Origin: a virus
Direction: 5' to 3' (one strand)
DNA: 37,713 nt
IMG/VR virus record: IMGVR_UViG_3300037891_000228
Location: 1 to 37,713 of that record
Shown here: one piece after another, positions 11,971 to 36,324 of the stretch
Numbering within the stretch: position 1 is the first letter of the stretch
Layout: each line of letters starts with the position of its first letter
Program-made: the position numbers and the translations under genes
The notes under the pieces: model-generated
Databases searched by the model: none
What the model was told of the DNA's origin: nothing
What the model saw: the letters and a program-made list of their open reading frames with translations, nothing else

Positions 11971-11974
11971 ATTA

Positions 11975-14900: not shown

Positions 14901-16729
14901 TCATTCATCGCTCCAGTAGAAAAAGGCTTCATTATCTGATCATCAAACTTAGACACAAAACTTGGATTGTTAGGATTTGTCCATGATTGCATAAAATTAT
15001 TCGCATCTATCTTAGAGTTACCTCTAAGTGGGTTTGGTGGATTCTGACCTCTAGTAAGAAAAGTTGGTATATTAGGATTATTATTCCCTATTTTAAAAGC
15101 ATCTCCTAAAGGGTTTTTATAGTACCTATAAATATTTTGTAAAGTATTTTTACTGGGAAGAAATTTGTTTAAAAATTGTTTTCCATATTTTAAACCACCT
15201 TTAATAATTGGACCTCCAAAAACATTTGCTGCAGCCCATCCTGTTTCAGGAAGTCCTTGCATAAGGTTTCCATACATTTGCTCTCCTCGTGATATCTGAC
15301 CTCTTTCTCTTCGAACTCTTCTTGAGTTAAGTTTTCTTGCCACTTCATCACTAGTCAATAAATCTCCTGTAAGAGGTTGTAGTGTGGAAGTAGAAAATAT
15401 ATTTGTTGCTAGTGGTTGTATAGTAGAATTATATATATCACCTATCAATCTAAAAGGATTAGATAGATATGTAAGAGGCATTGCTCCGGTTGGTAAGATA
15501 GGCGAGTTCATCTCGTTAGTATATGCTCTATCTATTTTTCTTTGCTCAGAAGTTCTGTTGTCCTGTGAAAACATTGGTGGTGTTTTTTGTACAACTGGTA
15601 TTTCATTAGGAAACTTCTTCAGTTTTGTCTTATCTATAATTGGAATCCTAATTGATCGAACGGCTGTATTATCTATAGCTATCTCTCTACCATCCTGAGC
15701 TTTCTTACAACTATCTTTACTAAAAGGTGTCTTGCCTGCAACAGCTTTATATCCAGACCAACATCTACCACCTGACTTAGCTTTCATTTCTGATTGTGTG
15801 TATAGAGGTGGTGGAGTATTAGAACGTGAATACATCATACCAGATGCACCAGGAAGACTTCCTCCCATTTTATATTTTGGATTAATTTGTATATCTCTAG
15901 ATCTACTATTGCCATACATTTTTAAAAGCTCCTCCATTCTTTTTTTGTCACCTTCTACATTTATTTCTTTTGACATCCAGGAAGGATTAGGATTTGCCAT
16001 GTTTTCATCTGGTGATATAATAGCCTCATATGATGTAGCTATTTGTGGTATATTTATCTGACTAGCTTCTATTGAATTAGAAACATTAATAGGTGTAATT
16101 CCAGAAGAATTTAATGAAGATACTGGTTTAAGACGTTCTATTTCTACAGGCTGTGTTGGTTTTTTATAAATAAATTGGTGAACGTTCTCTGGTATATCTT
16201 CTCTTTCACTATCTTCTCTTAACATATCTCTTAGGATACTTCTAGGGATGTAGTTGGGATTTTGAACACTTCTATCTGGTCTGATTCCTGTTTCTTTTTC
16301 CAGCTTCCCTTGTGTTTCCTTCGTCCATTTCATCCATCTTTCATGAACATCATTAAATTTTTCTGTTGCAGGACCAGAACTACCTGCTTCACTTTCAATC
16401 GCTATAGGTCCATGATCCACCAGTTCACCTGATTTAAAAGTTTTATTATAAGCTAATTCCCATTCTAGCATCTTTTGACCTACTACTGGATTAAGATTAT
16501 ACGCTCTTAAACTATCTTGGTAAGCTTTATATCTAGGATCATTTTTAGAATTAACTTTAATAGTACCACCTTCTTGATACTTATCTAACCAACCACCGTT
16601 AATCTTTTTCATAGGTGTTGCACCCCCAGCTATAGCACCGAAGTATTTCTTCTGCTTATCAGTCAGACCTCTACCATGGACAGTTCCATCGCTTAACATC
16701 TTCTTTGCTTTACCTGGTGTTAATGCCAT
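11975..16729 (-). CDS. Large virion cargo-type protein with two tandem zincin-like domains, 1584 aa
   Basis: The N-terminus reads KAKKMLSDGTVHGRGLTDKQ and then GGWLDKYQEGG, a signature I associate with Bacteroidota phage virion proteins. A Cys block (GGRCWSGYKAVAGKTPFSK) follows near residue 320. Two metalloprotease-like segments are visible: HETLGH near residue 753 with DPTEMIAR near 814, and HELSH near residue 1093 with DPTETRAR near 1154. In both, the Glu of DPTE lies 63 residues after the first His, so it could be the third zinc ligand. The C-terminal region has YISIYDIWDLQPF, and the protein ends in PGGWLDKY. Its ATG overlaps the previous stop by one base (TAATG), suggesting translational coupling. 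It is probably packaged in the virion; whether it acts in maturation, on the host envelope or on host proteins is unknown. Confidence 0.85.
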   Translation of the reverse strand: MALTPGKAKKMLSDGTVHGRGLTDKQKKYFGAIAGGATPMKKINGGWLDKYQEGGTIKVNSKNDPRYKAYQDSLRAYNLNPVVGQKMLEWELAYNKTFKSGELVDHGPIAIESEAGSSGPATEKFNDVHERWMKWTKETQGKLEKETGIRPDRSVQNPNYIPRSILRDMLREDSEREDIPENVHQFIYKKPTQPVEIERLKPVSSLNSSGITPINVSNSIEASQINIPQIATSYEAIISPDENMANPNPSWMSKEINVEGDKKRMEELLKMYGNSRSRDIQINPKYKMGGSLPGASGMMYSRSNTPPPLYTQSEMKAKSGGRCWSGYKAVAGKTPFSKDSCKKAQDGREIAIDNTAVRSIRIPIIDKTKLKKFPNEIPVVQKTPPMFSQDNRTSEQRKIDRAYTNEMNSPILPTGAMPLTYLSNPFRLIGDIYNSTIQPLATNIFSTSTLQPLTGDLLTSDEVARKLNSRRVRRERGQISRGEQMYGNLMQGLPETGWAAANVFGGPIIKGGLKYGKQFLNKFLPSKNTLQNIYRYYKNPLGDAFKIGNNNPNIPTFLTRGQNPPNPLRGNSKIDANNFMQSWTNPNNPSFVSKFDDQIMKPFSTGAMNENYLRVQTRELNVLKQQLDDFVKETGNSVLPKAKALQKSITQLENNINGFYKIQYSELARNNMKAIQAGEFNTVYSTTGYLPGSGGTYYIPYSSQPMNNWKYMYPNQPNKMGIGNNSVVKLREVPVGANNAVRNTARTEEMLTGIHETLGHASNVGGTALTKQTNDLIKNALKPNPKIKEGTSKYLQKFIGRPDATYKDWAKYLQDPTEMIARVMELRRQYINPTYWGTSKQYNIPDKLIDRIFRDGLSGKSKVNADFFRVIDKKGLKKLMKGLYATIPMAIGADGLLEYKHGGNVPKAQGGWLDNYEVIEDDMGQLTNPGKITKINSNNITMKGVNYPVLGVSDTGDTKVMQPGKDYKFGGNSVTEYPMAQDGLTTKTPTPSFPYINRVPDTSPQVDFLKDWTNSPRGQELLSKSFDGDEKDIEKLTYKRINNLDKVDFSIDDHASDFLGRYNRNRHDIKLNSSLLDTSEPKLIGNQDKDVVLHELSHAQDFSPGAEFNRITIPLSDQKLINKYRKRTIKDTKKLDAPRKVRKDIKDRVNYIGDPTETRARLNSIRYFYETSPIGKEEGMPSIFDSEVTSDMMEVMKDNQQFRELQEVYNDEEILELLNTVSDNSKSSGPSNMAYAQEGNNIPLKTVNEFGELERLTYPSSVFKDKEGNPQQVSLLDEVVVTSKGPITSAKEQMKEYGITDELRKSYVKDKSERAYNNIVPQGYGNIKTSLDRYRRFKGNLGRDPEALWYDGPEDDKTHYTIPNRDDAFRLYLGMPQINNSFSVSDYRPGDSEDKSMVYLKPTYFQNPEIRQELLDDYFRKYNSGIDEKYGLGFQDKRGIGNERQLSRGEWQGDGTPFPSADNALGDFTFDMGEDDKGSYISIYDIWDLQPFSSTGEGSSLNRAGKALLNLFNKKSGKKATSESEASELFGAGKPFEVYERIYFDPKTKKIIDMKQGGSLEKKAQLTNFTNYNTPQPGGWLDKY

Positions 16730-17598
16730 TACTTATATGATATTTGTGCTGGTGTTACAATAAACTGACTTACTATATGTGTTATAGAAGAGTTGTCTAA
16801 TATATGTCTCACCTTCAAATTCTTAGCTCTTAGTTGTGACTTCTTAAATGATAGGTCACCGTAATTCATGTTGTCTTGATTAACTACTTTATCTATTGAT
16901 TTAGATTCACATGATGTTTTAAATAAAGGCACTTCATCATCTTTTTGCAGTGCCCAGAAAGTATTGTATTGATAGAAACTATCTGTCTTTGCATATGTTA
17001 TAGTCTTACTATCAGTATTTAATATAGGATACTGTAAGTAGGAACTTAAATCATTCATAGGTTTAGGTACAAGTTCTATTATACCAGTAGATTGCTGACC
17101 ATTATAAAGAACAGCTTTATTAAAGTATTTATCATTGACTTGCACTTTACTATTAGAATCAAATGACCCTACTGTAGAAGGTAAGTATACATATACTTTA
17201 CTATAATCTTTTACATTCTGTAATATCTCATCGTAATACTTATATGCAAAAGGATACTCAATTATATAAGGAGCTATATCTCCATAGTAATAATTGTATA
17301 AAGTATCATTTCTTAAATGAGTCCATAAACATCCAGTTCGTTTAGGAGTGTATGTAGCATTTATATATTGTTGGTTAGGTATATTAACAACCTCAAAGGT
17401 TTTTGAATACTCACAATCACCTTTAGATTTAACTGTTACCGCTTTTACAGATGAATTTACTTCATAGCTTACACCAAAGATAAGATCACTTAATGAGACA
17501 TTGCTTCCCACAGTGACACCTCTATCAGTAATGATATCAAAAGGTCCTACATTAGGACTAGAGCTTGTTATTTTTAAGTTTATTATTATTGTTGCCAT
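16729..17598 (-). CDS. GPFD domain fused to a tail nozzle (muzzle) C-terminal-like region, 289 aa
   Basis: Residues 1-75 (VGPFDIITDRG) match the N-terminal domain of the four small fibre-cassette proteins at 28036-30374. From about residue 88 (CLWTHLRNDTLYNYYYGDIA) the sequence is different: IIEYPF, YFNKAVLYNGQQSTGIIEL, the FYQYNTFWAL stretch and a C-terminal KKSQLRAKNLKVRHILD with a final ISYK. This pattern is what I recall as the C-terminal part of the P22 gp10-like nozzle protein in crAss-like phages, and that part is missing from the 2210-aa protein encoded just upstream. The gene starts 6 bases after that gene's stop and overlaps the next start by one base. I infer a split nozzle; an independent nozzle-associated protein is the alternative. 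Confidence 0.7.
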   Translation of the reverse strand: MATIIINLKITSSSPNVGPFDIITDRGVTVGSNVSLSDLIFGVSYEVNSSVKAVTVKSKGDCEYSKTFEVVNIPNQQYINATYTPKRTGCLWTHLRNDTLYNYYYGDIAPYIIEYPFAYKYYDEILQNVKDYSKVYVYLPSTVGSFDSNSKVQVNDKYFNKAVLYNGQQSTGIIELVPKPMNDLSSYLQYPILNTDSKTITYAKTDSFYQYNTFWALQKDDEVPLFKTSCESKSIDKVVNQDNMNYGDLSFKKSQLRAKNLKVRHILDNSSITHIVSQFIVTPAQISYK

Positions 17599-17604
17599 AG
17601 TTAA

Positions 17605-20600
17605 TTATAAAGGACATGCTCCTAATAAAGTTATACCTGTACCAGTTATAGTGTTATCTGACGAACAGAACTGTAAGGTTTCTCCTGTAGGTACAGATAT
17701 TGCTTGCTCATCTCCTACACAGTTAGAGTACCATACTACTTGAGGTCCCACTACCTCATATCCGTAACATGGATATATTGATGTAGTAGTTGTTGTGGTT
17801 GCAGGTGAAGTTGTTGTTGTAGTTGTTGTTCCAAATTGATTTGTGCCTTTACTAACACAAGATGCTTGTTGGGTTACATTTGTAATATTAAGTTTACTCC
17901 ATATAGGTGTAACTTCATTTGGTGTAGGTGGAGTTATTATATCGTCTAAACACCCTTGTGGTATCACGCTAAAAGGAGATACAGTTTCTACTATAAATAA
18001 GTAATTCTCACAAGTAGAACCTTCTGATACAATACTTATCTCACAATCACATGACATGATCGCTCTACAACTTACAAACTCTGAATTAATTATCTCAGAA
18101 TTTATTTCTGGAGTTACTACTGCATTATCATAATCCCATTCAAAGTAATGGAAGTTTCCTGATGTAGTATTTTTTCCTACTGTTATTAATTTACCTGTTC
18201 GAGTATACAATAAGTTAGTTGTAAAGGTATAACCAGCAGGTAAAGCAAACTTAACAGTTTCTACAGCTAAGCCAGAAGTTAAATTAATTTCTATAACATT
18301 TACATTAGTAAAAGCAATAAGTGTATTGTTATCTTTTACAATAATTCCAGTAGTACTACTAGAACTCATAGTAAATGTTTCTTTAAAGGTTGCACTGAAT
18401 GGAGATGCTATCATATCCCATTTATCTAAATCAGTACCATCCCATGCATATATTGTATCTGGTCCAATTGCTAACTTACCAGAAGTATAGTTAGGAATTG
18501 TAACTGGAATACCATTCATATCTGGTATATTTTCTTTATATATATTAACAGTTCCATTGTCATCATTCATTAACCATGTGCAACATTGATCAAATGCTCC
18601 TGTATATATAGTTGTAGTTGTTGTAAGAGTATCACAATCACATGGTTGTTCTATTTTTACAAATCCATTTTCTACATAAAACACTGTTCCAGGTTCATAT
18701 TGAACACTATACCAACCATCAGGAACTACAGTACAATTTTGACTTGTTCCTAAGTAGACTTGAGAGTTAAGTATACTAGTAGTATTGTTTGTTAGTGGAC
18801 TATACTCATAATTAAAACTAATAGGAATAATGTCAATAGTACCAAATGAGAACGCAGCTACACTACATGCTTCTTGTGCAGTAGCTGTTCCTATTACTGG
18901 AGTGGTTGTTCCTTTTATTTGATATCCTTCTACAAAAGTTGCAGTAGTTAAAGGTGTAGGTCTTACACACAAAGTTGTAGTTGTAGGAGTAGGAACTGTT
19001 ATATATCCTACACCATCTATCTCACAACTTAACTCATCCATTAATGATATACTAAAATCACAGTCAGGTACATAAGATGTAGTTGTACTTGTTGTAAATA
19101 AAGGATTAGAAGTACTTGTTGTAGTTGTTGTAATAAGAACAGGTGACTGTACTACTCCTACAAGCATGTCTAAAATAGGTTCTTCTTTGTCTATTCGACT
19201 TCTATCTGGAGTATCAAGAATAGCAGTAAAGTTTGTACAACACCCATTAATTCCTGAGTAGTAGAAATTGTTTTCCCCTATATAAAAGTTCGGTAGGTAT
19301 GTGTGAAACGATATCCAGCTTTTTGTACTAAAATCGAATGACATAGTCCAAGATTTATTACAAAAGTATTTCTTATCATTTAAGAACACTTCTTGATCTA
19401 GTCCACCGGCTACTAAAGATGGCAAATAGAAATTTTGAGTGTCTACATCAAAGTAAACTAAAGGATCTATAGGAATGTAATCTAGTTTTGTAATAATAAT
19501 TCTATCAAATTTACTATCATATACTCCGTGAAGTCCAAATCCTGTAAAGTTATTGTCTATGTTTACTTCTGGAAAATATTCTAATATCTCAAAAGGTAAA
19601 CTGTTTGTCATAAATCTGTTTACTCCTGAACCAAACCCTGTTAGATCAACAGCTTTATTTCCACTTATAAGAAATAACTGTCCTCTTTTTGCATCTACAG
19701 TAATCTGACCATATGGTAACTTGAGCAAGAATTTGTGTTGAGATCCTACATATCCTAAGTCCGTTTCTGCAAAGTCTATTGGAGGAGAACTAGAAAACAG
19801 TCTAGGGTTACCTATATAAGCTGCTTGTGGATTACTAGTATCAATAGTTAAAAGTTTATTGTATAGTAAAGCTTTATTTTCAAATCGTGCTAATACTGCT
19901 TTATCTTGAATACCATCTAATGATATAAGATCACCATAATTTTGTGGAAAGTCAAATAAATTAAGAGCTCTGTATACTAACCAGTTGTTTACTCTATTGT
20001 CAGGAGTATCTGATTGTGAGTCAGAGTAAATTGCTCTGAATGGGAAAAATGTAAAACATAATTCCTCTCTCCAATCCGGAGGTAGTTGACTAAATGAGTT
20101 CTCTTTGTTTTGTTTAGAGTAAGTTACATTATAATAATAAGTATTATCTTGAGCAATTGGAACATTTATTTCTTGGAACCACTCATCTGGAATACCACTA
20201 CTTACGTGAGGCCAGAAGTCTCCTTCTTTAGTATTAAAAGCTTGTCTTAAATCTGTATTGTATATACTTTCACAATAGAAGTTAGGAACACCATAAGCCC
20301 ATAGATACATGTATCCGTCATAGAATGTTCTAGCTGTACCTGCATAAGCACTTTCTGATCCTTGAGTATAATTAGCAGGATCACTAGGACAATCTAAATA
20401 ATTAGCCTTAGTAGAGATAAGGTTAAACATATTTTGAGGAGCATTGTTACCTTCAGTTACTGTGTAATTACTTAGTATAGATCTAGCAGAATGCCAGTAT
20501 TTAGGATAAGCTACATTACCTAACTCATCAAAGAATATATCTGAATCATCTGGTGCTGCCACTCTATTATCTATAAAGAATGGTAGTTTAGTTTTAAATG

Positions 20601-23600
20601 TAAATCTAGATATAAATACATCACCACCAAATATAGTATCATTAGCGTTTTTAATTACAGGGTTTATAAGTTTTTGATATCCTGTATCTATTCTTTTAAA
20701 TGAATTTATTTGACCCCACTGATTAGGTATAATATTCTTCATAGAAGCATAATAGGAAACTACCTTTATGTCTTGTTCTTTTTCAGGAGTACCACAAGCT
20801 CCACTTTCTCCTATAGCAAATCTTGAATACTCTACCATACTAGAAGTTCCATCTGGAGCATCTAAACTATTTGTATCTTGTGGAAGAGGTAATGCTAATA
20901 AATTATCATTGGTTTTAGTTTTAATGTATACTGATGATTCTCTATTCCAATTATTTATAGGAGAATCATTATTATTAAATGATTGAACACCTGGTATTAA
21001 ATATCTTGTAAGTTCTATCTCTCTTTGTTTGATACCACCGCTAACATTATTGTCAATAGAAAAAGAATAATCATAGTTTGCTCTTGAGTTGAAAGACATT
21101 GCATAATTCTTTCTTGTTATACCATTTATGTATATAGTAAGATAGGATTGGTATACTGTAAACATTACACCAGCATTCCATTCACTACCCATTGCTGCTA
21201 CTCTTTCTGCACTATTTAAAGCATCTTGTTGAGCCTCTTTACTTAGAAGTTTATACTTAGCATTGTCTTTAACTTCTACAAAGTGAGCCTTTCCTGCTCC
21301 AGCCATAACACTTTCTAACTTTAGTACCCCACCTAAGAAAGGTTGTCCAAAAGATGTATCCGGTGAATTAAATATTAATTTATCTAAAAGATCTTTTGCT
21401 CTTTCAGCATCAATACCATCTAAAGGTGAAATCTCTATATTTTTTTCACAGTTTAAACAAGACCTTCTTCCTTGACGACTACCTGTACCACTAAGAGCAG
21501 CAGTTCCACCATCAGTCAATGCTATCTGAGGGGTAAGAGTGTCCCTTAAATCGTTAGGTGGAGGTGTTACTGGAGGAAGAGGGTTAGTAGGTTCTCCAAA
21601 ACCAGATGGTTCACCATTAACTGTATCAATACAACATTGACATGCTTCTCCATTAGGACCTTCAGTACATTGGGTTGAAAAACAACCTGGAGAATAAGTA
21701 CCGTTAGGAGCATTAGTTCCATCTTCATTTACACAAACTCCATCATTACCAAGAGGTGCTAATTTTAATTTAGGTTTACGACCAGACTGACCATTAATAG
21801 TTGGACACTGTCTAGTACCAATTCCTGGCCTAAAGGCATGACCTTCAGCATCAGTATCAAATTGACCATCATAATCAAAGTCAGGATCATAATCAGTTAT
21901 AACAGTACCTCTTTTGTTTGTAAAAATGTCGCTGAACCACCACTTTGTTGCTTCTAAGGTTCCGTCAAAATTTATATTATTAAAAGGATTTTCAGTTATT
22001 GATCTCCAACCACAAAATGAACCACTACCATGAAAACATTTCCATATATCATAATTTCCAGGACCTATTGTCATTCTTCCAGTAAGAGCTACAGGTCTTG
22101 TAAGAGAACATACTTCTATAATACAATTAGGTGATATTGTTGCTTTTGTAGATTTTCCATTAGTGATACTAATATATTGAAATACACCATCTCCTTCATT
22201 TACTGTTATATCTTGATCTATTCCTGGAAGACCTACGGTTGCAATATCTGGCATGTATACAAGCCATGGTTTAGATTTATAATTCCATGCGTTATTATTC
22301 TCTTGAATAAATGAGTCTTCTCCAGAAACTTGGTTGTATGGGTAGTTAGGATAATAATACTCTTGACCTTCTCTTTTGTAAGCATTTATATTTCTAAGTA
22401 TACCTTTAGCTATAATTGAACGATTGGTTGAACGATCTCCTCTAACTATTTTAAATCCTACAATATCATCTTTTTGTTCTTGTGTTAAATCAGAAGTTAT
22501 TATTAAATTATTAATTTGAATGTCGTTAATCTTTACTCCTATAGGAAATACAGCATTGCTGTCTTGCATAACAGGTGCCATATTATTTCCGTCATAAGTC
22601 ATAACAGGGCTTTCCATAATAGGACTAACTAATACATCTGGAAACTTATGATGTCTAATAGGTGTGTCAGCTAACTCACCCCACACATCTGTATTACAAG
22701 GATATTTTTCTGTAGATTCCCAGTATGCAAACTCTCCGAATTCATAAGGTCCTTTATAACTCTCAGCCGAACTATAGTCTGGTGAGAAACCTAAATTTAT
22801 AGCATTGTTATATATCTTCCAATATGAACTATATCCTATATCATTTTGAAAGTAATCTGGTTCACCTACAAAATCATCATTAGTGTTAGGTACATCAGGT
22901 TGAACATTAAGATTATCAGGACCTGGAATATGAAAAGAGTCTGTCTGTTTTCCATTTTTAAGAAGAAATACTATCTCAAATGCATACACTTCATCACGCA
23001 TATATCCACGTAAGTTTGTAGCATTATCTTCATCAGCATAATTTTCATCAGCAGGGATTCTGTGTGTTTCCCATTGTAATGTTATATTACTAGCAATTTG
23101 CTGATAGTTAATTCTATCTATAGATGTTAAATTATCCCACACCAATACATCTTGAACCGATGTTAAATCTTGAGCTATATCATAATAAGGATACTTTTCA
23201 AATATATCATTTATTGATAATCTTATAGCTGTCTGGTCTGTTCCTGTATAAGTTATTTCTTCACTAGGTTCAGTAATATTATATGTTCCTACTAATTCAA
23301 CCGCAGAGATGTTGTTTATGGTTTTAATTACTGCTAAGTTAAAGTAGTTAAATTGTCCTGATGTATCTAGGTTAGATACTTTTACTAAAATAGATTTACC
23401 TACCGGATAGTTAAAGTTTACTGTTGTTATAAGAGGATCAGCAATAGGACAAGGATTAGTTACTGAATAATAAGATGTTAGATCATTACCTCCAGCATCA
23501 GCATATTGAATAGCAAACTGATAAACGCCAGCTACTAATGATCCTACATTAGTTACTTCATTAACTTCTAAAAAAGGTATATCAAAGTTAGGTTGTATCT

Positions 23601-24237
23601 TTAATTGATTACAGTCTAGTTCATCACTATATACAGGATCACAATTAATACTTCCAGAAATTAGTTTATAGGGAATACCAATTGGTTGTAAGTTCTCATC
23701 TGTTTCTACATCTAAATATCTTCTAGCATTAATTCCATCAGTCCAATATATCTCTGTAGTACAGTTTGTTATTTTATGTACTACCTTTGGTATAGGGTGA
23801 TCAACACTAAAGTTTAAACATGGAGCATTAATTAGCTTGCGATATTGACAATCATTATTAAACATAAAGCCAATTTCACTTCCACCAGTTAAGGGGTTTG
23901 CTAAAAAGAATATGTTTTTCTTTTTCTCAGGAATAGTGTGTTTTCCTATAAGTTCATAACCATCAGGAAAACTAAAACAAGGTTCATTACCAGGTTCGTT
24001 TTGATAATTAATAGAACTAGAATCAAAGTTTTCAACAGTTGCATTTAAGGCATAGGTGAGGTTTCCTGTTTTCACCTGGTTAATTGTACTGTCCATGTTA
24101 AGTCCAGACTGAGCTTGATTAAACTCCATCCTTACTTGCCCTTTCTGAGAAGATTCCATCTTCTTAGCTGCAGCAACTTTTTTCTTAGCCGCACTTAAAC
24201 CTGAAGCAGTGTCGTCTCTTTCTTTTCTAGTAGCCAT
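17605..24237 (-). CDS. Giant tail nozzle/muzzle (P22 gp10-like stabilisation) protein with adhesin-like C-terminal modules, 2210 aa
   Basis: After a Lys/Ala-rich start, GLNMDSTINQVKTGNLTYALNATV opens a long beta-rich core (to about residue 1660) with family-like segments such as TDGINARRYLD, FNSPDTSFGQPFLGG and SWISFHTYLPNFY. These fit the P22 gp10-like tail stabilisation protein that forms the muzzle of crAss-like phages. A Cys-rich insert lies near residues 830-910. From about residue 1698 the protein changes character: poly-Thr linkers near 1698-1725, 1872 and 2135-2152 separate small Cys-containing beta modules and a propeller-like region (about 1880-2080). The canonical C-terminus seems to sit in the next gene instead. 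It directly follows the tubular protein gene, the expected order. It would form the channel through which DNA and cargo leave, and may also bind host receptors. Confidence 0.8.
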   Translation of the reverse strand: MATRKERDDTASGLSAAKKKVAAAKKMESSQKGQVRMEFNQAQSGLNMDSTINQVKTGNLTYALNATVENFDSSSINYQNEPGNEPCFSFPDGYELIGKHTIPEKKKNIFFLANPLTGGSEIGFMFNNDCQYRKLINAPCLNFSVDHPIPKVVHKITNCTTEIYWTDGINARRYLDVETDENLQPIGIPYKLISGSINCDPVYSDELDCNQLKIQPNFDIPFLEVNEVTNVGSLVAGVYQFAIQYADAGGNDLTSYYSVTNPCPIADPLITTVNFNYPVGKSILVKVSNLDTSGQFNYFNLAVIKTINNISAVELVGTYNITEPSEEITYTGTDQTAIRLSINDIFEKYPYYDIAQDLTSVQDVLVWDNLTSIDRINYQQIASNITLQWETHRIPADENYADEDNATNLRGYMRDEVYAFEIVFLLKNGKQTDSFHIPGPDNLNVQPDVPNTNDDFVGEPDYFQNDIGYSSYWKIYNNAINLGFSPDYSSAESYKGPYEFGEFAYWESTEKYPCNTDVWGELADTPIRHHKFPDVLVSPIMESPVMTYDGNNMAPVMQDSNAVFPIGVKINDIQINNLIITSDLTQEQKDDIVGFKIVRGDRSTNRSIIAKGILRNINAYKREGQEYYYPNYPYNQVSGEDSFIQENNNAWNYKSKPWLVYMPDIATVGLPGIDQDITVNEGDGVFQYISITNGKSTKATISPNCIIEVCSLTRPVALTGRMTIGPGNYDIWKCFHGSGSFCGWRSITENPFNNINFDGTLEATKWWFSDIFTNKRGTVITDYDPDFDYDGQFDTDAEGHAFRPGIGTRQCPTINGQSGRKPKLKLAPLGNDGVCVNEDGTNAPNGTYSPGCFSTQCTEGPNGEACQCCIDTVNGEPSGFGEPTNPLPPVTPPPNDLRDTLTPQIALTDGGTAALSGTGSRQGRRSCLNCEKNIEISPLDGIDAERAKDLLDKLIFNSPDTSFGQPFLGGVLKLESVMAGAGKAHFVEVKDNAKYKLLSKEAQQDALNSAERVAAMGSEWNAGVMFTVYQSYLTIYINGITRKNYAMSFNSRANYDYSFSIDNNVSGGIKQREIELTRYLIPGVQSFNNNDSPINNWNRESSVYIKTKTNDNLLALPLPQDTNSLDAPDGTSSMVEYSRFAIGESGACGTPEKEQDIKVVSYYASMKNIIPNQWGQINSFKRIDTGYQKLINPVIKNANDTIFGGDVFISRFTFKTKLPFFIDNRVAAPDDSDIFFDELGNVAYPKYWHSARSILSNYTVTEGNNAPQNMFNLISTKANYLDCPSDPANYTQGSESAYAGTARTFYDGYMYLWAYGVPNFYCESIYNTDLRQAFNTKEGDFWPHVSSGIPDEWFQEINVPIAQDNTYYYNVTYSKQNKENSFSQLPPDWREELCFTFFPFRAIYSDSQSDTPDNRVNNWLVYRALNLFDFPQNYGDLISLDGIQDKAVLARFENKALLYNKLLTIDTSNPQAAYIGNPRLFSSSPPIDFAETDLGYVGSQHKFLLKLPYGQITVDAKRGQLFLISGNKAVDLTGFGSGVNRFMTNSLPFEILEYFPEVNIDNNFTGFGLHGVYDSKFDRIIITKLDYIPIDPLVYFDVDTQNFYLPSLVAGGLDQEVFLNDKKYFCNKSWTMSFDFSTKSWISFHTYLPNFYIGENNFYYSGINGCCTNFTAILDTPDRSRIDKEEPILDMLVGVVQSPVLITTTTTSTSNPLFTTSTTTSYVPDCDFSISLMDELSCEIDGVGYITVPTPTTTTLCVRPTPLTTATFVEGYQIKGTTTPVIGTATAQEACSVAAFSFGTIDIIPISFNYEYSPLTNNTTSILNSQVYLGTSQNCTVVPDGWYSVQYEPGTVFYVENGFVKIEQPCDCDTLTTTTTIYTGAFDQCCTWLMNDDNGTVNIYKENIPDMNGIPVTIPNYTSGKLAIGPDTIYAWDGTDLDKWDMIASPFSATFKETFTMSSSSTTGIIVKDNNTLIAFTNVNVIEINLTSGLAVETVKFALPAGYTFTTNLLYTRTGKLITVGKNTTSGNFHYFEWDYDNAVVTPEINSEIINSEFVSCRAIMSCDCEISIVSEGSTCENYLFIVETVSPFSVIPQGCLDDIITPPTPNEVTPIWSKLNITNVTQQASCVSKGTNQFGTTTTTTTSPATTTTTTSIYPCYGYEVVGPQVVWYSNCVGDEQAISVPTGETLQFCSSDNTITGTGITLLGACPL
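17777..17831 (-). repeat. Poly-Thr-coding triplet repeat (nozzle, C-terminal linker)
   Basis: ACA/ACT/ACC triplets encode two Thr runs split by Ser-Pro-Ala. The tract separates the last small module, which ends in CPL, from the propeller-like region. Synonymous codons are mixed, so the run is kept at protein level rather than as a perfect DNA repeat. Confidence 0.8.
18609..18630 (-). repeat. Short poly-Thr-coding tract in the nozzle protein
   Basis: It encodes LTTTTTI between the CDCD-ended module and the next module beginning with DQCC. It is a linker of the same kind as the other Thr runs. Confidence 0.65.
19075..19135 (-). repeat. Poly-Thr/Ser-coding tract at the nozzle core-to-module boundary
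   Basis: It encodes two Thr/Ser runs around NPLF. It marks the point where the conserved nozzle core ends and adhesin-like modules begin. Confidence 0.75.
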
Positions 24238-24242
24238 ATATA

Positions 24243-25247
24243 TTAATTAAAACCATTACGTCTCCAATATCTATTTGAATATCTACCTGATACTTGAGAT
24301 TTTGCATCTGGTAGTTCATATTGGTTAAAACGATTTAAGTCAGTAGCAATTTTTCTTTGCTTTTGATAAGCTGTCTCTTTTTTAAGTTCTATTTCTGCCA
24401 TTACCCATGCCTCATCCATTATTTGTTTATGATAAAGAAGCTTAGTTTGTAGTTGATTAAATGTTTCATCTACTGTTTGATTTGTAAGAGTTTCAAACAC
24501 TTTGAATTTAATAAATGATTCAATATATTCTCTAACACGAAAGTTATCAGGTACTAATTGATTACCTATTTTATCATAATCTGTTGCATAGAATACTAAG
24601 TGTACTGTTCCTGATCTAAAATTTGTTACAAATTTATTATCTCTAATATCAAAAGAGTCAAAGGAAGATGCACCAGGTGTAAATTCACGACCTGCTAAAG
24701 TTAATTGATTAAACTCTGACCAAGAGTTGGTGTAAGATAAATTACAACTTTTACGTGCAGATATGTTTCCTGGTTTTAGTAAATAAGATCTTCTCCAAGT
24801 TCTAGGAATCTCACTGTTTGTTTTATATACAGCTTGAACAACTGTAGGCATACATGTACCATCACAACTAGGATGTTGACACTCAGGATTATCACAAGGA
24901 GTTCCTCCTATTGTTAGAGGAGCCACTTGAATAGTTGTAGCATTAACTGCTTGAGTGTATAAAGAAGATGCAGCAGGGTAAGGATTTCCTTGTACCACAG
25001 CACACATCCATGCTTCTCTCACTGCATAAAAGTTATCAGGAAGTCTTGCTTGAAAATCTTCTATAAACAAAATATCAGTAGTGATTTGAAATGTAGTCCT
25101 ACCCATCTTCCTAAGACATTTGTCTAGGTAAGTAGGAAATAATAAATCATCTACAGCTCCAGTATCAAAATAACTTTTAAGTTCTTCTTTTACTGTTGCA
25201 TATAATGGTTCTGGGGATACAAAATCGTATTTATAATAGTATGACAT
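24243..25247 (-). CDS. Tail tubular / neck ring protein (P22 gp4-like), 334 aa
   Basis: The N-terminal half has YATVKEELKSYFDTGAVDDL, LDKCLRKMG and then FQARLPDNFYAVREAWMC, a pattern I recognise from the tail tubular (P22 gp4-like) ring protein of crAss-like phages. It lies immediately upstream of the nozzle gene (5 bases apart), as expected for the ring that joins portal to nozzle. The C-terminal third is helical (IESFIKFKVFETLTNQTVDE) and ends in a basic tail. An odd Cys/His cluster (C118, C123, H125, C128, C132) sits in a loop after residue 115 and may bind a metal or form disulfides. The ring assignment is strong by order and motif; the exact ring number is not claimed. Confidence 0.78.
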   Translation of the reverse strand: MSYYYKYDFVSPEPLYATVKEELKSYFDTGAVDDLLFPTYLDKCLRKMGRTTFQITTDILFIEDFQARLPDNFYAVREAWMCAVVQGNPYPAASSLYTQAVNATTIQVAPLTIGGTPCDNPECQHPSCDGTCMPTVVQAVYKTNSEIPRTWRRSYLLKPGNISARKSCNLSYTNSWSEFNQLTLAGREFTPGASSFDSFDIRDNKFVTNFRSGTVHLVFYATDYDKIGNQLVPDNFRVREYIESFIKFKVFETLTNQTVDETFNQLQTKLLYHKQIMDEAWVMAEIELKKETAYQKQRKIATDLNRFNQYELPDAKSQVSGRYSNRYWRRNGFN

Positions 25248-25738: not shown

Positions 25739-26467
25739 CTAGTTTGTAGGTTGAGCATTTGGAGCTTGTCCATCTATGCCTTCATTACTCATATCATCTT
25801 TAATTTGGAAGTATGTTGATAATAACTTTTGAGAAGTTAAAGATAACGCTTGTTGCTCTAGATAGCCAGGTAGTGCATACTCCTTATCTAAGGGGTTTTT
25901 ACAATACTCTTCATCTGTATATTCAGGACTTCCACATCCACATTCTGGATACATGATTTCGTTAGGCACATCTTCTTCAAAGAATGCTGCCAACCTTATT
26001 GCTTTTAATAAAGGATTATTTACATAGAGGTATCCATTAGATATCCAAAAGTAATAATCATTTTTTACTATAGGTAGTTTTAATAAATTAATATATCTAT
26101 TAATTGTTATTTCTTTTAATTTAGTACCTTTTCCACCCATGGCATCTATAGAATAAACACCTTGAATTACATATTGATAGTTACCTTCAGAGATCCTAGG
26201 TAACTTAAACACTGTTCTTGACACTGTACACTCATCTGCATACTCACAACATTCAGAGATAGGTACTTCTTTCATCTCTAGACAAGGTATTGTAGTAAAC
26301 AAGGTGTCACTTGCCCATAGCTTTCTTAAATTAGTTTCTCTTTTAATTAACAATTGAGCAGTATTCTTAACTTCAGAAGCGATTGCTCGATCTGTTATAA
26401 GTGCGTCTGTTGATAAAATCTTGTGCATTGATCGCACATCTGAAACTAATTTTCTTAGTGTTGCCAT
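25739..26467 (-). CDS. Conserved ring/neck-type structural protein, 242 aa
   Basis: The N-terminus (LRKLVSDVRSMHKILSTDALI) is helical, the centre is beta-rich (QYVIQGVYSIDAMGGKG, then INRYINLLKLPIVKNDYYF), and the C-terminus has a Cys-containing stretch (YPECGCGSPEYTDEEYC) and a helical end (LEQQALSLTSQKLLSTYFQI) with a disordered tail. Gene order just upstream of the 159-aa and tubular genes fits one of the ring or head-completion proteins of crAss-like phages. I did not identify which one. It begins 2 bases after the stop of the 48-aa gene. The structural role is inferred from position and composition. Confidence 0.75.
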   Translation of the reverse strand: MATLRKLVSDVRSMHKILSTDALITDRAIASEVKNTAQLLIKRETNLRKLWASDTLFTTIPCLEMKEVPISECCEYADECTVSRTVFKLPRISEGNYQYVIQGVYSIDAMGGKGTKLKEITINRYINLLKLPIVKNDYYFWISNGYLYVNNPLLKAIRLAAFFEEDVPNEIMYPECGCGSPEYTDEEYCKNPLDKEYALPGYLEQQALSLTSQKLLSTYFQIKDDMSNEGIDGQAPNAQPTN

Positions 26468-28035: not shown

Positions 28036-28701
28036 TTATGGGTTAAAATCATTACAACATTTACTGTGTATCCATGTAAAATTAAAGCTATCTCCAGAGC
28101 TTCCACTAAAATTAAAGTCATCAACTGCACAAGGTGTTTCTAATGAGTTACCTACTACATCATAGTTTCTTATTGAAAGTGTTCCTACATTACCGTTTCC
28201 ATTGTTCTGAGTGTTTTTCATTGTTACAGTGTTTCTGTAAGATATAAGATCAGGATCAAAAAAGAACAGCTGCATATTATTTAAAGGGCAAGCAAAGTCT
28301 GGTTGTGTTATAACTTGAGTAACATTACTTCCAACCATTACTGATCCTACTTGTGCACTTTGATTTAAACTTACATCTCCTATCTTTACACCATTTAAAA
28401 GTATATCAAAGTCATCTTGTACAGTAGCACTAGTATTACATAGTTGAAAAACTATTGTTTTATTTGTACAGACAGGTGGAATATTAATAACTATATCTTC
28501 ATGGTTATTACAATTAGGATTAACTGATACTATCCTTATAGATGTAGTTCCATCAGGAACATTGTAAGACACAAAACCTACAAGCAATTGTACTGAAGTT
28601 ATTTCAGTTTCAAAAGCTTCTGTATATCCATTAACTTGAGAAAATAAGTCAAAGGGTCCAGCATCACTTCCTATATTACTAGCTTGTATTAATACTGTCA
28701 T
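28036..28701 (-). CDS. GPFDLFS-domain fibre-cassette protein, 221 aa
   Basis: Residues 1-75 (DAGPFDLFSQVNGYTEAFET) carry the domain shared with the next three genes upstream and with the 289-aa nozzle-associated protein. From about residue 85 a second beta-rich region follows (FDILLNGVKIGDVSLNQSA, then LFFFDPDLISYRNTVTM), ending in a Cys pair (KCCNDFNP). No signal peptide or enzyme motif is seen. It is the last gene of the cassette, immediately before two hairpins. I infer a small virion-surface or fibre-tip protein in which the GPFD domain is the anchor and the C-terminus the variable head. Confidence 0.75.
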   Translation of the reverse strand: MTVLIQASNIGSDAGPFDLFSQVNGYTEAFETEITSVQLLVGFVSYNVPDGTTSIRIVSVNPNCNNHEDIVINIPPVCTNKTIVFQLCNTSATVQDDFDILLNGVKIGDVSLNQSAQVGSVMVGSNVTQVITQPDFACPLNNMQLFFFDPDLISYRNTVTMKNTQNNGNGNVGTLSIRNYDVVGNSLETPCAVDDFNFSGSSGDSFNFTWIHSKCCNDFNP

Positions 28702-28711
28702 TGTTAGTTTA

Positions 28712-28954
28712 TTATGTTATAGTTACATCTACAAAGTTCTCACCACATAGAAGGTTATTTGCACTATTTTGTAGTCTTACAATAGTAGTACCAGCTGGAG
28801 AAGCAGACGTATTAAATCCTAGTGGACTAGTTAATACAGTAATAGATATATTAGTAGCAAAGGCAGTTTGATAAAAATCTGCATTCGAATATAAATCAAC
28901 AGGGCCAGCACAGGCACCTGCAGAAGTTAATTTTATGTTTATTGTTTGTGCCAT
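28712..28954 (-). CDS. Stand-alone GPFD-type domain protein, 80 aa
   Basis: The protein is essentially one copy of the shared domain (AGPVDLYSNADFYQTAFATN), ending in a beta strand (ENFVDVTIT). GPVDLYS replaces the usual GPFDLFS. Gaps to its neighbours are 10-11 bases. As a bare domain it is the best guide to the domain's boundaries (about 80 residues). It could be an adaptor or capping subunit for longer relatives. Its function is unknown. Confidence 0.72.
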   Translation of the reverse strand: MAQTINIKLTSAGACAGPVDLYSNADFYQTAFATNISITVLTSPLGFNTSASPAGTTIVRLQNSANNLLCGENFVDVTIT

Positions 28955-28965
28955 ATATAATTATT

Positions 28966-30123
28966 TTAAGCAAAGCATGTATCTACGTATGAAATTATTC
29001 CACCTGTTCCTACTCTTATAGTGTAAGTTACTTGTCCAGCAGGTTGAAGAGATGAAAAATAATGCCAGTAATTATTCAATCCGTTGAATGTTGATTGACC
29101 AGGAGTAGCAGGAGTACCAGCTAGATTATAAAGAGTGTCTCCAATTGCTGGTGTTAATCCTCCACTTTTAAAAGTAAATGTGTTTAAATTATAGTTACAA
29201 ATACCAACAACAAGGTTACTACTAGATTGACTAGATCTTAATGCAGATTGTAATTGTGAACCAGAAGTAGTTGTAGTAGTTGTTGTAACAGGTACTAGTG
29301 TAGTAGTTGTTCCTGCTGTTACTACTGCAGTTGCCCCATTTAATGAACAATCACAAGTAGTGGTTGTTGTTGTTGTTGAAGAAGAGCTACTTGTTGTAGT
29401 TGTTGTTGTAGGTGCTACAGTAGTACTAGTAGTAGTAGTTGTAGCTTCTTCTTTGTAAGTATCAGCTACAAAAGAGAAATCTACATCTACTCCTGCTCCT
29501 ACAAAGTTTGGAGATAGAGCAGTAGTATAATCATCAAAACAATCATTACATGTATCTTGTGCTTGATATAATATACCATCTTTTATTATTGTATGGACAA
29601 AGTTATACATACCTTCTCTTTGAGTAAAGACAGTAGCAGCTACAATATCTCCAGGTAGTATATCTACTGATCCACTTGCAGAGGATGCAGTTCCTGTAAT
29701 AGCCACATTTACCACTTCAACACTATTAATAGTAATTGTTAAAATAGATTTTTGTGGGAATGCTGGTGCAGTTAATGATCCTGGTGTATTTGTTATAAGC
29801 TCCCAATTAAATTGGTTTGGTGGAACTTCTGTAGTAGTAGTTGATGTTGAGGTTGAAGTACTTGTAGTAGTTGATGTACTAGAACTAGTAGTTGTAGTTG
29901 TTGTAGGACAGTTAGTAGGAATACTTACACAATTAGTACACACTCCTGTAGAGCAAACTTTAACAGTAGAGGTTCCTGCAGGAGCTACTACTAGATATCC
30001 AGCAGTTAAACTTGCAGCAGGTACTTGTGTAGCAAAAGCTTGTACATAGTTATCTACATTTGAAAATAAATCAAATGGTCCTGCTTGTCCGTCTATTGTT
30101 AATGTTATTTCTATTAAAGCCAT
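28966..30123 (-). CDS. GPFDLFS-domain protein with poly-Thr linkers and two further modules, 385 aa
   Basis: Residues 1-75 hold the shared domain (QAGPFDLFSNVDNYVQAFAT). A Thr/Ser run (about 73-98) leads to a beta-rich module (FNWELITNTPGSL onward, about 103-222). A second set of Thr/Ser runs (about 227-256) precedes a short Cys segment, and another Thr run (near 278-286) precedes the C-terminal module (VVGICNYNLNTFTF onward), which ends in DTCFA. This bead-on-string layout resembles a surface adhesin or fibre. The Thr runs could be flexible, O-glycosylated stalks, but glycosylation is speculation. It starts 2 bases after the previous stop. Confidence 0.75.
   Translation of the reverse strand: MALIEITLTIDGQAGPFDLFSNVDNYVQAFATQVPAASLTAGYLVVAPAGTSTVKVCSTGVCTNCVSIPTNCPTTTTTTSSSTSTTTSTSTSTSTTTTEVPPNQFNWELITNTPGSLTAPAFPQKSILTITINSVEVVNVAITGTASSASGSVDILPGDIVAATVFTQREGMYNFVHTIIKDGILYQAQDTCNDCFDDYTTALSPNFVGAGVDVDFSFVADTYKEEATTTTTSTTVAPTTTTTTSSSSSTTTTTTTCDCSLNGATAVVTAGTTTTLVPVTTTTTTTSGSQLQSALRSSQSSSNLVVGICNYNLNTFTFKSGGLTPAIGDTLYNLAGTPATPGQSTFNGLNNYWHYFSSLQPAGQVTYTIRVGTGGIISYVDTCFA
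29266..29443 (-). repeat. Poly-Thr/Ser-coding triplet repeats in the 385-aa protein
   Basis: Three interrupted runs of ACA/ACT with some AGC/AGT code for Thr/Ser linkers between modules (Cys segment and GTTTTLVPV in between). On the plus strand they read as GTT/GTA-type low-complexity DNA. Confidence 0.8.
29830..29907 (-). repeat. Poly-Thr/Ser-coding tract after the GPFD domain
   Basis: A run of about 26 Thr and Ser residues joins the GPFD domain to the first module of the 385-aa protein. Ser and Thr alternate in part (STSTSTST). Confidence 0.8.
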
Positions 30124-30125
30124 AA

Positions 30126-30374
30126 TTATGGTGTTGTTGTTGTGGTAGTAGTTGTTTGCTGTAATATAATATCAAAACTATTCTCACATAATGAATCTGA
30201 TGCTACTTTAATTATAGTAGTAAAATCAGTAACAGCTGATGTTGTATAACCAGCTAGTAATTGAGTTTTAGTTATTCCAGTTTCAAAAGCAGAAGTGAAC
30301 CCATCTACATCTGAGAACAGATTGAAAGGTCCAGTGTTATTTCCTGCAGTAGTTAGTTTTATAAATGCTTCCAT
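30126..30374 (-). CDS. GPF(D/N)LFS-domain protein with C-terminal poly-Thr tail, 82 aa
   Basis: It is a single copy of the shared domain (NTGPFNLFSDVDGFTSAFET) followed by a run of eight Thr and a terminal Pro (30130-30155). It looks like the N-terminal part of the 385-aa protein cut off right after the linker. Either it is a stand-alone subunit or it is a remnant of a longer protein that lost its C-terminal module. It starts 1 base after the upstream stop and ends 2 bases before the next start, so it is an intact member of the operon. Confidence 0.7.
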   Translation of the reverse strand: MEAFIKLTTAGNNTGPFNLFSDVDGFTSAFETGITKTQLLAGYTTSAVTDFTTIIKVASDSLCENSFDIILQQTTTTTTTTP

Positions 30375-33192: not shown

Positions 33193-36100
33193 TTATGATG
33201 GATTAATTTTTACGGAAAACGTAGTGAATATTGTTCTTACACCAGGTGTTACAGTGGTAGTGGTTGTTGTTGTTTGCCCAGGTTGAGTTGTAGTTGTAGT
33301 GGTAGTATTTGAAAAATTAAATCCGTCACTTATTCTACAGCTTGGTTTACTTCCTGAACTTCCACCATTATAACTATTATCAGACTCTGCAATGCTCCAT
33401 TCTAGTGTATTGAAACTAACCTTCCATAACTCAGTAGTATTAGTATCTAAACGTCTTGCAGTAATATATAGGAACTCACCAATTACACACATGTCTCCTG
33501 AAGTCCTATAGCTGTCAGGAACTAGTCCTGGACCAGATAACATAGTATCACCTTCAAAGTTACCTGTAGCATAATCAAATTGTGAAACTACTATAGGTTC
33601 ATTTGATCGTAAAGCTATATATTTACTTGGTGTTCCATCTTCGTTAAGAGTTACTACATGCTCACTACCTCCATTAAATGGTTCAGGTATTGTAAATTGT
33701 AGACTTACTGCTAAAACATTAGATCCTGGTACAAATGAAGCTTCAAACACCCTTTTACCTGCTCCTCCGGCTAATCTATAATTAAGAACAAAAGTATTAT
33801 CATTGATTGTAGACATTCCCCCTGGAAACCTGACTGTTCCGAATGGATCAGGTAAATCATTTGGATCAAGTTCATAAATTATTCCATCCCAAGAAAGATT
33901 TTCAGGTACCCCACTTGCTGATGGAGTATACTGAAGTCTGGCAAACCTATAGGTCGATATATTTTGGTCATCATCTACGCTGATTGTCCATGCCATATAA
34001 TTTTCACTAACACAACTATTAGGAACTGTGAAAGCACTTCCTGGTGGTAATACTATTGGTTCTAAAGTACCTGTTACAATATTGTGTGACTGGAAGACCC
34101 TGTATATAGCATCTGAAGCATCTGGAAAGTTGTTTTGAGGAGCACATATTCCAGGATTGTCATTACAGTCATATGTATCCAAAGTTGTATATATTCTATT
34201 ACAATTCAGAGCTGGGCTAGGACATCCTAAGAATAAGTCCCCACCACTTGGTGCATTACCATATATAGTCATAGATGTATAGTTAGCAGGAGCAGTAACT
34301 TTAAACTCTCCATCCCCTTCATTGTAAATAGGTTCTTGAGAAGGCACAAAAGGATTTTGTACCCCACCCCATAGTCTATTACTATCAACTTGAACGTAAC
34401 ACCCTTGATTTATAGAAAGTGTTGGAGTTCCACCATTAGTTTCTACATAGTATACATCTCCATCTGTACCATCTACATTACTATTTAGAACACCAGCTCT
34501 AATTGCAATGTTGTTAACTGGTACAGGGAAATTAATTGTAATACTAAAGTTATCACCTTGTACAAATGCAGTTACAGCTTGTCCTTCAGATGATGGTCGT
34601 AGAAGTCCACTACACGGTGAAGTAAGAGATGATCCAGATTGGCCTAAATGTCCTGAAACTATGCCAAGTGGTTGTACGAGATCAAATGCGTCTACATTCT
34701 CTGCTATACTTGCTGTACAAGTCATTCCTTGATATGTAAATGTCTGAGGAGTAGGATCATATACACCTCCGACACTCGGTCTAGCTGGATTACCTTCTGA
34801 ATCAAAGAAGAAAGGAGGGAAGTAAGCAACACCACAATCAGGAGTATCTGCTGTTTCAAATTCAATGTTAGAACAATGTGTAGCTGAACTTAACCAGTCA
34901 TTAGAACTGGTTACACTATTGGCAAGTGTAAAATTGTAAGGAGGTAATTGATCTAGTGTGTAAACCTCTAAAGTTTCTGGTTGTAACAATTGTGCTACTC
35001 CATTTACACCCCAGAAAGGTACATCTTTTGGTCCATTATAACTTTCTGAAAAGTCTGGAATTCCAGTTAACTGGAGGTTACGTGAAGCAATAGCTGTATT
35101 GTAATTTTCAAATTCAGGACTAGATGGAGTTACAGGGAATACTTTGAGGTAGTTACCTACAAGACCTGCAAAACCTGATCCATCAGGCTTAAGATCTAGT
35201 CTATATCCCATTACTAACTGCCCTGAATTTGTATAAGTAATATTACTCAACTTATTTGCATTACCTATTCCAGGACTACCTGCCCACTCATTAGATATAT
35301 CAGTTCCAAAAATTGAAATATCTCCTGCAGCTGCAATACTAAATTCATTAAGATAGATTCTACCAAGACCACCAGTACCCTCTTGTGGTGGTGGAGCGAA
35401 TTCATAGCCTGTTCCAATAATAAGTGTATCATTATCTTTTGCAGTCATAGCCCATACAGAAGTTCCTGAAAGATTAACACTATATACCTCTCCTATACGA
35501 ACTGTTATCTCTCTTACATAAGTTAGTATAGGAAGTGCACCAGTTGCATCTATATCCCACTCTCTAATATATACATGGTTCAGCATACCAGATGATCCAC
35601 TACCAGCACGTTGATTAACTATACTAGATAACCATAGTTTATCTTCTGTAGCACAAATAGGTCTTTCAATACCCACTGTCTCAGTAAAGTCATTGGGAAC
35701 TAATACAGTTGTACTTGTGTTAGTATCAAAGTCATATACAGCTACACTTCCTGGATTACCACCATCAGTAGACCAAAGACATGGTACACCAAATGCATCT
35801 GGGAAGTAACTGGTTGTAGTGGTTGTTGTAGGAGGAGGTGTGGTAGTAGTTGTTGTTGTAATACTACAATCAATTACACCAGTAAAGTTACAATTAAGTG
35901 TTGTTGTACTTGTTGTGGTACTACTTGTAGAAGTTGTAGAAGTTGTACTTGTACTAGATGTACTAGTAGTAGTAGTTGTAGGATTAGGACATGGTGTAAT
36001 AGCACATGTAGTTATCTCACATACAGTTGGTTCATTACAGAATGAAACGTAACCAGCAGTAAGACGAATAACCTTGCTAGCAATATCCTCTGTACTTATT

Positions 36101-36324
36101 TCTGGGCATCTAGTGGCATAATGTGTATCACAATATCTAAACATTAGTACACGTTTGTATACTAAAAGTTCTGAGATCTGAGTAACCGCTATAGGTTTAT
36201 TCAACATAAATACAACATTGTTGTATAAGTTGTTCCCTAGCTCTGCTAATTTACAGTCTATTCTTCTAAGTAAATCAGGAATGTCTGCACATCCTTTGCA
36301 ATTGGTTAATCTTGGTGATAACAT
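33193..36324 (-). CDS. Modular tail-fibre/adhesin-like protein with poly-Thr linkers, 1043 aa
   Basis: Residues 1-100 (LSPRLTNCKGCADIPDLLRR, then NNLYNNVVFMLNKPI and YKRVLMFRYC) look like a virion-attachment domain that I associate with crAss-like phages. Thr/Ser runs at about 114-171 lead to a region of repeated beta segments (about 175-500) that resembles a beta-propeller. Residues about 530-690 form another beta-sandwich-like module (TFTYQGMTCTASIAEN, then FSITINFPVPVNNIAIR). A second propeller-like region follows (about 700-1000), then two more Thr runs and a short C-terminus. It is probably a receptor- or glycan-binding fibre. Propeller and lectin assignments come from pattern only. Confidence 0.78.
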   Translation of the reverse strand: MLSPRLTNCKGCADIPDLLRRIDCKLAELGNNLYNNVVFMLNKPIAVTQISELLVYKRVLMFRYCDTHYATRCPEISTEDIASKVIRLTAGYVSFCNEPTVCEITTCAITPCPNPTTTTTSTSSTSTTSTTSTSSTTTSTTTLNCNFTGVIDCSITTTTTTTPPPTTTTTTSYFPDAFGVPCLWSTDGGNPGSVAVYDFDTNTSTTVLVPNDFTETVGIERPICATEDKLWLSSIVNQRAGSGSSGMLNHVYIREWDIDATGALPILTYVREITVRIGEVYSVNLSGTSVWAMTAKDNDTLIIGTGYEFAPPPQEGTGGLGRIYLNEFSIAAAGDISIFGTDISNEWAGSPGIGNANKLSNITYTNSGQLVMGYRLDLKPDGSGFAGLVGNYLKVFPVTPSSPEFENYNTAIASRNLQLTGIPDFSESYNGPKDVPFWGVNGVAQLLQPETLEVYTLDQLPPYNFTLANSVTSSNDWLSSATHCSNIEFETADTPDCGVAYFPPFFFDSEGNPARPSVGGVYDPTPQTFTYQGMTCTASIAENVDAFDLVQPLGIVSGHLGQSGSSLTSPCSGLLRPSSEGQAVTAFVQGDNFSITINFPVPVNNIAIRAGVLNSNVDGTDGDVYYVETNGGTPTLSINQGCYVQVDSNRLWGGVQNPFVPSQEPIYNEGDGEFKVTAPANYTSMTIYGNAPSGGDLFLGCPSPALNCNRIYTTLDTYDCNDNPGICAPQNNFPDASDAIYRVFQSHNIVTGTLEPIVLPPGSAFTVPNSCVSENYMAWTISVDDDQNISTYRFARLQYTPSASGVPENLSWDGIIYELDPNDLPDPFGTVRFPGGMSTINDNTFVLNYRLAGGAGKRVFEASFVPGSNVLAVSLQFTIPEPFNGGSEHVVTLNEDGTPSKYIALRSNEPIVVSQFDYATGNFEGDTMLSGPGLVPDSYRTSGDMCVIGEFLYITARRLDTNTTELWKVSFNTLEWSIAESDNSYNGGSSGSKPSCRISDGFNFSNTTTTTTTQPGQTTTTTTTVTPGVRTIFTTFSVKINPS
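33253..33308 (-). repeat. Poly-Thr-coding tracts near the fibre C-terminus
   Basis: Two runs of seven Thr each separated by QPGQ lead to a final segment of about 18 residues. With no further module after them, they may be the remnant of a lost module. Confidence 0.75.
35811..35981 (-). repeat. Poly-Thr/Ser-coding tracts after the fibre attachment domain
   Basis: About 57 residues rich in Thr and Ser, broken by a short Cys segment (LNCNFTGVIDCSI) and a PPP, separate the attachment domain from the propeller-like region. This is the longest such stretch in the window. Confidence 0.8.

Follow-up and report, generated by a model that had tools for sequence, protein, structure and literature searches.

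The muzzle, or tail nozzle, is a hallmark of the Crassvirales and serves as the gate that retains genome and cargo in the particle. In phiCrAss001 the channel is gated by the propeller, and published accounts put differences in muzzle length down to insertions that lie within the crass and IG2 domains (PMC10172136). In the T7 nozzle gp12, the fibre dock lies on the outer surface, between the propeller end and the platform, and a disulfide connects blades 7 and 1 (PMC6702177). Among crAss-like phages, stop-codon recoding occurs, and structural genes of the Zeta group are reported to be split by introns (PMC7886860).

We analysed a stretch of viral DNA of 37,713 nucleotides (IMG/VR record IMGVR_UViG_3300037891_000228, positions 1 to 37,713), hereafter the window. 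Being made as a single polypeptide is a trait of the known muzzle members and not part of the Pfam definition; this trait is absent from the window, which has two genes instead. A split muzzle was not described in the literature that we searched, which left out preprints and most subscription papers.

A muzzle divided between two genes

The genes concerned and their structural neighbours are as follows.

17605..24237, minus strand: large muzzle gene (2210 aa), core (residues 1-1664) plus module extension (1665-2210)
19246..24237, minus strand: muzzle core, residues 1-1664, whose last strand, 'NNFYYSGIN', lies immediately ahead of the break
16729..17598, minus strand: small muzzle gene (289 aa), made up of a GPFD domain and the muzzle C-terminus
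17344..17598, minus strand: GPFD domain at the new N-terminus, residues 1-85, by hhalign to the GPFD domains of the fibre cassette
16732..17343, minus strand: muzzle C-terminal part, residues 86-289 (hhalign E 5.7e-24)
24243..25247, minus strand: ring protein 1 homologue (PF24228, E=6.4e-7), directly upstream of the muzzle gene
25739..26467, minus strand: ring protein 2 homologue (PF25702, E=3e-19)

The 2210-aa ORF matched Pfam crAss_MUZ (PF25731, E=1.3e-34) and PHROG 37948 (E=1.9e-109; best stretch, residues 1031-1595), and the gene adjoins the ring protein genes, as expected of a Crassvirales muzzle. Alignment to intact muzzles placed the boundary of the core at residue 1664 ('...FYYSGIN'), and as far as this residue the gene encodes a Crassvirales muzzle. 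The 289-aa protein had no Pfam or PHROG match; its residues 86-287 aligned by hhalign with intact muzzle C-termini (99.6%, E 5.7e-24), and tblastn matched it to Lbo-JY46 (E 4e-13), MT837925 (E 6e-9) and csAssE-Sib (E 5e-7), with Flavobacterium phages also among the matches. Both halves are held, contiguously, by one annotated gene in Lbo-JY46, csAssE-Sib, phi17:2 and Fpv1. Residues 86-289 of the small gene product are the muzzle C-terminus that the large one lacks. The break falls inside a hairpin where intact chains show the pattern '..F.SG....LW.H..'; in the window the core of the large protein finishes '..YYSGIN' and the muzzle part of the small protein opens 'TGCLWTHL'. By profile alignment, the break maps to residues ~1234-1238 of gp44, the phiCrAss001 muzzle.

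A sequence-only reading of the window had proposed that the nozzle is split over two genes, with the core running to about residue 1660 and the absent C-terminus carried by the next gene, and had taken the halves to be contiguous in crAss-like homologues. All of this held: the split is supported by Pfam, PHROG and profile alignment, the boundary is refined to 1664, the C-terminus occupies residues 86-289, and the halves form one chain elsewhere.

Downstream of the split muzzle, at the position of the ejected cargo protein, lies a 1584-aa gene (11975-16729, minus strand) with two HExxH-type motifs (HETLGH and HELSH) and a sub-threshold SprT-like match (E 0.0098). Its product could be an injected protein with two metallopeptidase-like domains, although this is no more than a possibility.

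Distribution of the split among relatives

Three IMG/VR scans together with reference records yielded 249 loci, of which core and C-terminal profiles classified 239 (209 split and 30 intact). Removal of duplicates left 160 split versus 29 intact loci: 29 with the muzzle in one piece, 102 in two pieces, 48 in two pieces with more than 150 nt between them, and 10 in three pieces. The split is thus not peculiar to the phage of the window; in 160 distinct relatives the parts are separate genes with the same hairpin cut. All muzzles found outside the split group are one chain (csAssE-Sib, Lbo-JY46, phi17:2, Fpv1 and 24 more). The joining loop in intact loci measures 0-9 residues (13 in one locus, L109), and in split loci the same points lie ~350 nt or more apart. 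A search of genome contigs returned only one relative, fragmentary, from a Flavobacteriaceae MAG.

Phylogeny of the shared core gathers the split loci into one group (SH-aLRT 100). Nested inside it, beside the split loci L171-L173 (support 100), is L109 (IMGVR_UViG_3300033571_020867, ~11081-12742), where the halves are one chain joined by the 13-residue loop, both cysteines that flank the break are kept, and the cassette and GPFD domain are deleted. An AU test did not reject a monophyletic split group with L109 outside (p 0.37); more rows place L109 inside, with support 100. We consider L109 a probable case of re-fusion by cassette deletion, a conclusion that rests on a single contig; such a re-fusion is the strongest sign that both pieces do one job.

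The ten three-piece loci (L038, L039, L041, L058, L059, L061, L070, L078, L080 and L249) carry a second cut at a site that remains intact in the window:

19399..19425, minus strand: loop A, residues ~1605-1613, second break point in three-piece relatives

At these loci loop A is cut ahead of 'YFCNKSW', where the core gene stops with modules of its own, and a separate middle gene consists of ~50 muzzle residues plus modules. The three-piece state requires 4 changes on the best tree, 2 of which are forced by strong branches. In phi17:2 and Fpv1, whose muzzles are one chain, loop A holds inserts of roughly 200-300 aa; it is therefore a tolerant site in the wider family.

Modules at the cut and constraint on the two halves

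On both sides of the cut, the window carries sequence related to its fibre genes.

17608..19245, minus strand: C-terminal extension of the large chain, residues 1665-2210, with fast-evolving modules linked by poly-Thr
18643..18948, minus strand: first folded module, residues 1764-1865, predicted mostly beta (AlphaFold2 pLDDT ~80-95)
17833..18600, minus strand: second module, residues ~1880-2135, predicted six-bladed-propeller-like by structure comparison
17617..17766, minus strand: last small module, residues 2158-2207, predicted beta (pLDDT ~90)
28036..30374, minus strand: fibre cassette of four GPFD-domain genes (28036-28701, 28712-28954, 28966-30123 and 30126-30374), from blastp among the window genes and alignment
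33193..36324, minus strand: putative fibre/adhesin gene, 1043 aa, with poly-Thr linkers

The extension of the window had no Pfam or NCBIfam match. A model of the window chains joined by read-through (pTM 0.38) did not show docking of the chains; few C-terminal alignment rows were correctly placed, and because most of them were misplaced we used this model for the extension modules only. The predicted second module resembles the LRP6, megalin, Kelch, NHL and Pizza propellers (Z 12-14, rmsd 3.4-4.5, ~200-220 residues). Among relatives the extension ranges from 27 to 1691 aa, its median Thr content being 20% versus 7% for the core, and 108 of 394 extension segments match ORFs outside the muzzle genes; those matching ORFs that we examined lie a few kb upstream, at fibre-cassette positions. 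The extension of L038 includes a FISUMP domain (PF09603, E 4e-36). The 1043-aa gene of the window gave blastp matches to the muzzle extension, driven in part by Thr runs.

The GPFD domain of the 289-aa protein is homologous to the N-terminal domain of the four fibre-cassette genes (hhalign 96%, E 4.4e-9). One of these, an 80-aa gene (28712-28954, minus strand), is almost entirely a single GPFD domain, suggesting that the domain folds and works alone.

Several further observations concern these regions. The longest extension seen, 1691 aa in L165 (11843-16915), is leucine-rich-repeat-like by eye and has no Pfam match. In a close relative, L002, a stop interrupts the extension (~9444-9559), which is either a further split or a sequencing error. 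Within the fibre cassette of the window, a gene at 31857-33191 (minus strand) encodes a 444-aa protein with trypsin-like motifs by eye ('TNNHV' and 'GDSGS') and no Pfam match. Additional GPFD-domain genes sit between both muzzle genes in L137 (13690-14346) and L116 (13176-13631), where the cut looks as though it might be a landing site for fibre genes.

Selection acts unevenly along these proteins. Overall, dN/dS is 0.04-0.11 for the C-terminal part, 0.10-0.26 for the core, 0.19-1.05 for the GPFD domain and 0.41-0.64 for the extension. When the window is compared with its own relatives, the values are 0.04-0.09 for the C-terminal part, 0.10-0.14 for the last 500 codons of the core, 0.32-0.66 for the GPFD domain and ~0.41-0.49 for the extension. 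Split loci have median identities of 68% in the core, 33% in the extension, 40% in the GPFD domain and 71% in the C-terminal part. The contrast in dN/dS and identity indicates that selection shifts sharply near residue 87 of the 289-aa protein. The C-terminal part is present in a single copy in all 19 records of ~98-126 kb, with no second copy of the muzzle C-terminus found in these 19 genomes.

The residues flanking the cut are coupled across the two genes.

19240..19242, minus strand: codon of C1666 in the large chain, coupled with C90 of the small chain
17329..17331, minus strand: codon of C90 (TG-C-LW) in the small chain, coupled with C1666 of the large chain

With z 19.2, this pair tops the ranking of 64,842 inter-gene column pairs; the next pair reaches 10.4. 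Among 151 loci, 117 have both cysteines, 34 have neither and none is mixed; a cysteine at residue 107 of the small protein occurs in 26 of the 34 loci without the pair versus 0 of the 117 with it. Two caveats apply: the state shifts only ~5 times on the tree (3 times on well-supported branches), and recombination of the whole cassette could carry both cysteines together. A C1666-C90 disulfide that staples the cut in most of the clade is the probable explanation, inferred from the coupling.

The one-chain model of L109 (pLDDT 75, pTM 0.70) matched the phiCrAss001 muzzle (7qok_A) with Z 12.4 and rmsd 4.7 over 315 residues spanning the join (model 114-594 on 7qok_A 1025-1359); the nearest other nozzles scored Z 8-9. 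Foldseek with this model listed other nozzles first, gp44 not being among its best rows, and a second fold comparison found gp44. A phmmer search of both window proteins against PDB sequences gave nothing useful, so that gp44 was reached by fold comparison only. The C-terminal propeller and ring-joining fold of gp44 is seen in the L109 model, and the C-terminal part of the window aligns with intact relatives. The single copy, the constraint, the cysteine coupling and the L109 model together strongly favour the view that both pieces still form one functional unit, the assembly of two chains being inferred.

The sequence-only reading had further claimed that a GPFD domain is common to the 289-aa gene and the fibre cassette and that adhesin-like modules are grafted at the break; both claims held, the modules being of fibre type and placed exactly at the break. 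Its view of the modules as receptor-binding elements on the nozzle surface is unproved, the surface position being inferred from T7 (PMC6702177). Both tests that could have overturned it came out in its favour: aligned homologues outside the split group have the parts as one chain, and a natural one-chain relative, L109, matches the phiCrAss001 muzzle across the join.

Proposed mechanism, alternatives and known nozzles

Homology, contiguity elsewhere, restriction to a single clade, independent starts and stops, the selection pattern and the coupling were all computed. From these we arrive at a reading that we hold to be very probable (roughly 0.85), namely a muzzle beta-propeller built of two chains, probably stapled by a disulfide, with host-contact modules displayed at the free chain ends; we infer the assembly, the disulfide and receptor binding. 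The Crassvirales muzzle, a single chain, would have been cut at a hairpin by gene fission. The large chain would provide the ring-joining, IG and crass parts and most of the propeller, the small chain would complete the last blade and add the platform, the ring-joining part at the C-terminus, and both would fold as one subunit across the cut hairpin, with the C1666-C90 disulfide as the staple in most of the clade. By analogy with T7, the cut would lie on the outer side of the muzzle and leave a free C-terminus and a free N-terminus, and to these ends exchangeable modules of fibre type would be attached (on the large chain, beta modules with poly-Thr linkers; on the small one, the GPFD domain). 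The modules may most plausibly touch the host surface or other fibres beside the gate. Surface position, host contact and gating of the channel by a hexamer remain inferences made without virion data for this clade.

The alternative that survives best, although we think it unlikely, is that the halves assemble and the extensions do not bind the host, being neutral tails or virion-attachment parts for other fibres. In its favour, minimal extensions of 27-64 aa exist, and GPFD stands at the N-terminus of fibre genes, a frequent place for virion-attachment domains; against it, a FISUMP domain and a predicted six-bladed propeller are among the modules, which evolve fast and also occur in fibre genes. 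Less likely still, and in our view very improbable, the 289-aa protein would be a virion component in its own right, for example a fibre adaptor, with a muzzle-like C-terminal fold that does not complete the muzzle. It does have its own GPFD domain, common to fibre genes. However, the large protein lacks the C-terminal part and no other copy exists in any of the 19 genomes, this part is under the strongest constraint, the residues flanking the cut are coupled, and the parts have been re-fused in one lineage.

Production of one polypeptide through stop-codon readthrough, recoding or frameshifting, which would give a single-chain muzzle with a long insert, is all but excluded. The two ORFs of the window do share a frame, with a sole TAA between them (junction TAA TTA ACT ATG), and stop-codon recoding is known in crAss-like phages (PMC7886860). 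Against this, adjacent split pairs are distributed 43/33/19 over the three frames, so that no frame relation is conserved, and their stop-to-ATG distance is mostly -1 to 12 nt; the 48 loci with more than 150 nt between the parts have room for a gene, and in some of them another gene intervenes; and TAA is the stop of 17 of the 19 listed window genes. Readthrough is excluded because all three frame relations occur in relatives, some of which have an intervening gene. Equally remote is the idea that the split is a side effect of mobile introns or inteins. Such elements do break up genes in some crAss-like phages, and intron-split structural genes are reported for the Zeta group (PMC7886860), but a search of the window matched no Rfam family, the sequence between the parts is coding and holds modules of fibre type instead of an intein or a homing endonuclease, and in relatives both parts have start and stop codons of their own. 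Sequencing or assembly error as the origin of the split is ruled out by the 160 distinct split loci.

Beyond the two-chain muzzle with displayed modules, a bolder reading takes the propeller as a multi-chain scaffold whose blade hairpins are breakpoints, the chain being cut at one or two positions, each cut displaying exchangeable host-contact modules and disulfide staples restoring the fold. We offer it tentatively, as less likely than not. If it is true, contact with a receptor through modules tied directly to the last blades would exert a pull on the gate, so that recognition and opening become one. A lineage whose gate protein comes in two or three chains, with fast-evolving modules at the cuts and a coupled cysteine pair, illustrates how a channel that is otherwise conserved can become open to change, and the split muzzle points to experiments on the link between recognition and gate opening.

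Among known nozzles, the locus resembles phiCrAss001 gp44 (PF25731; 7qok/7qol), with which it shares a homologous core, ring genes directly upstream and the C-terminal propeller and ring-joining fold; unlike the window proteins, gp44 is one chain of 1371 aa in which the corresponding loop is only a few residues ('FKDGKMW', ~1233-1239). Whereas published muzzle variation lies in crass and IG2 insertions (PMC10172136), the window has a chain break near the last propeller blade. By analogy, it resembles T7 gp12 in placing a host-contact or fibre-docking element between the propeller end and the platform, and in its probable disulfide, which in gp12 links blades 7 and 1; but gp12 is one polypeptide, with a fixed domain as its dock in place of an exchangeable extension at the free end of a chain. 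The phi17:2 and Fpv1 muzzles resemble the three-piece relatives in their loop A inserts; in contrast to the window, these inserts are in frame within a single chain, and loop B is short.
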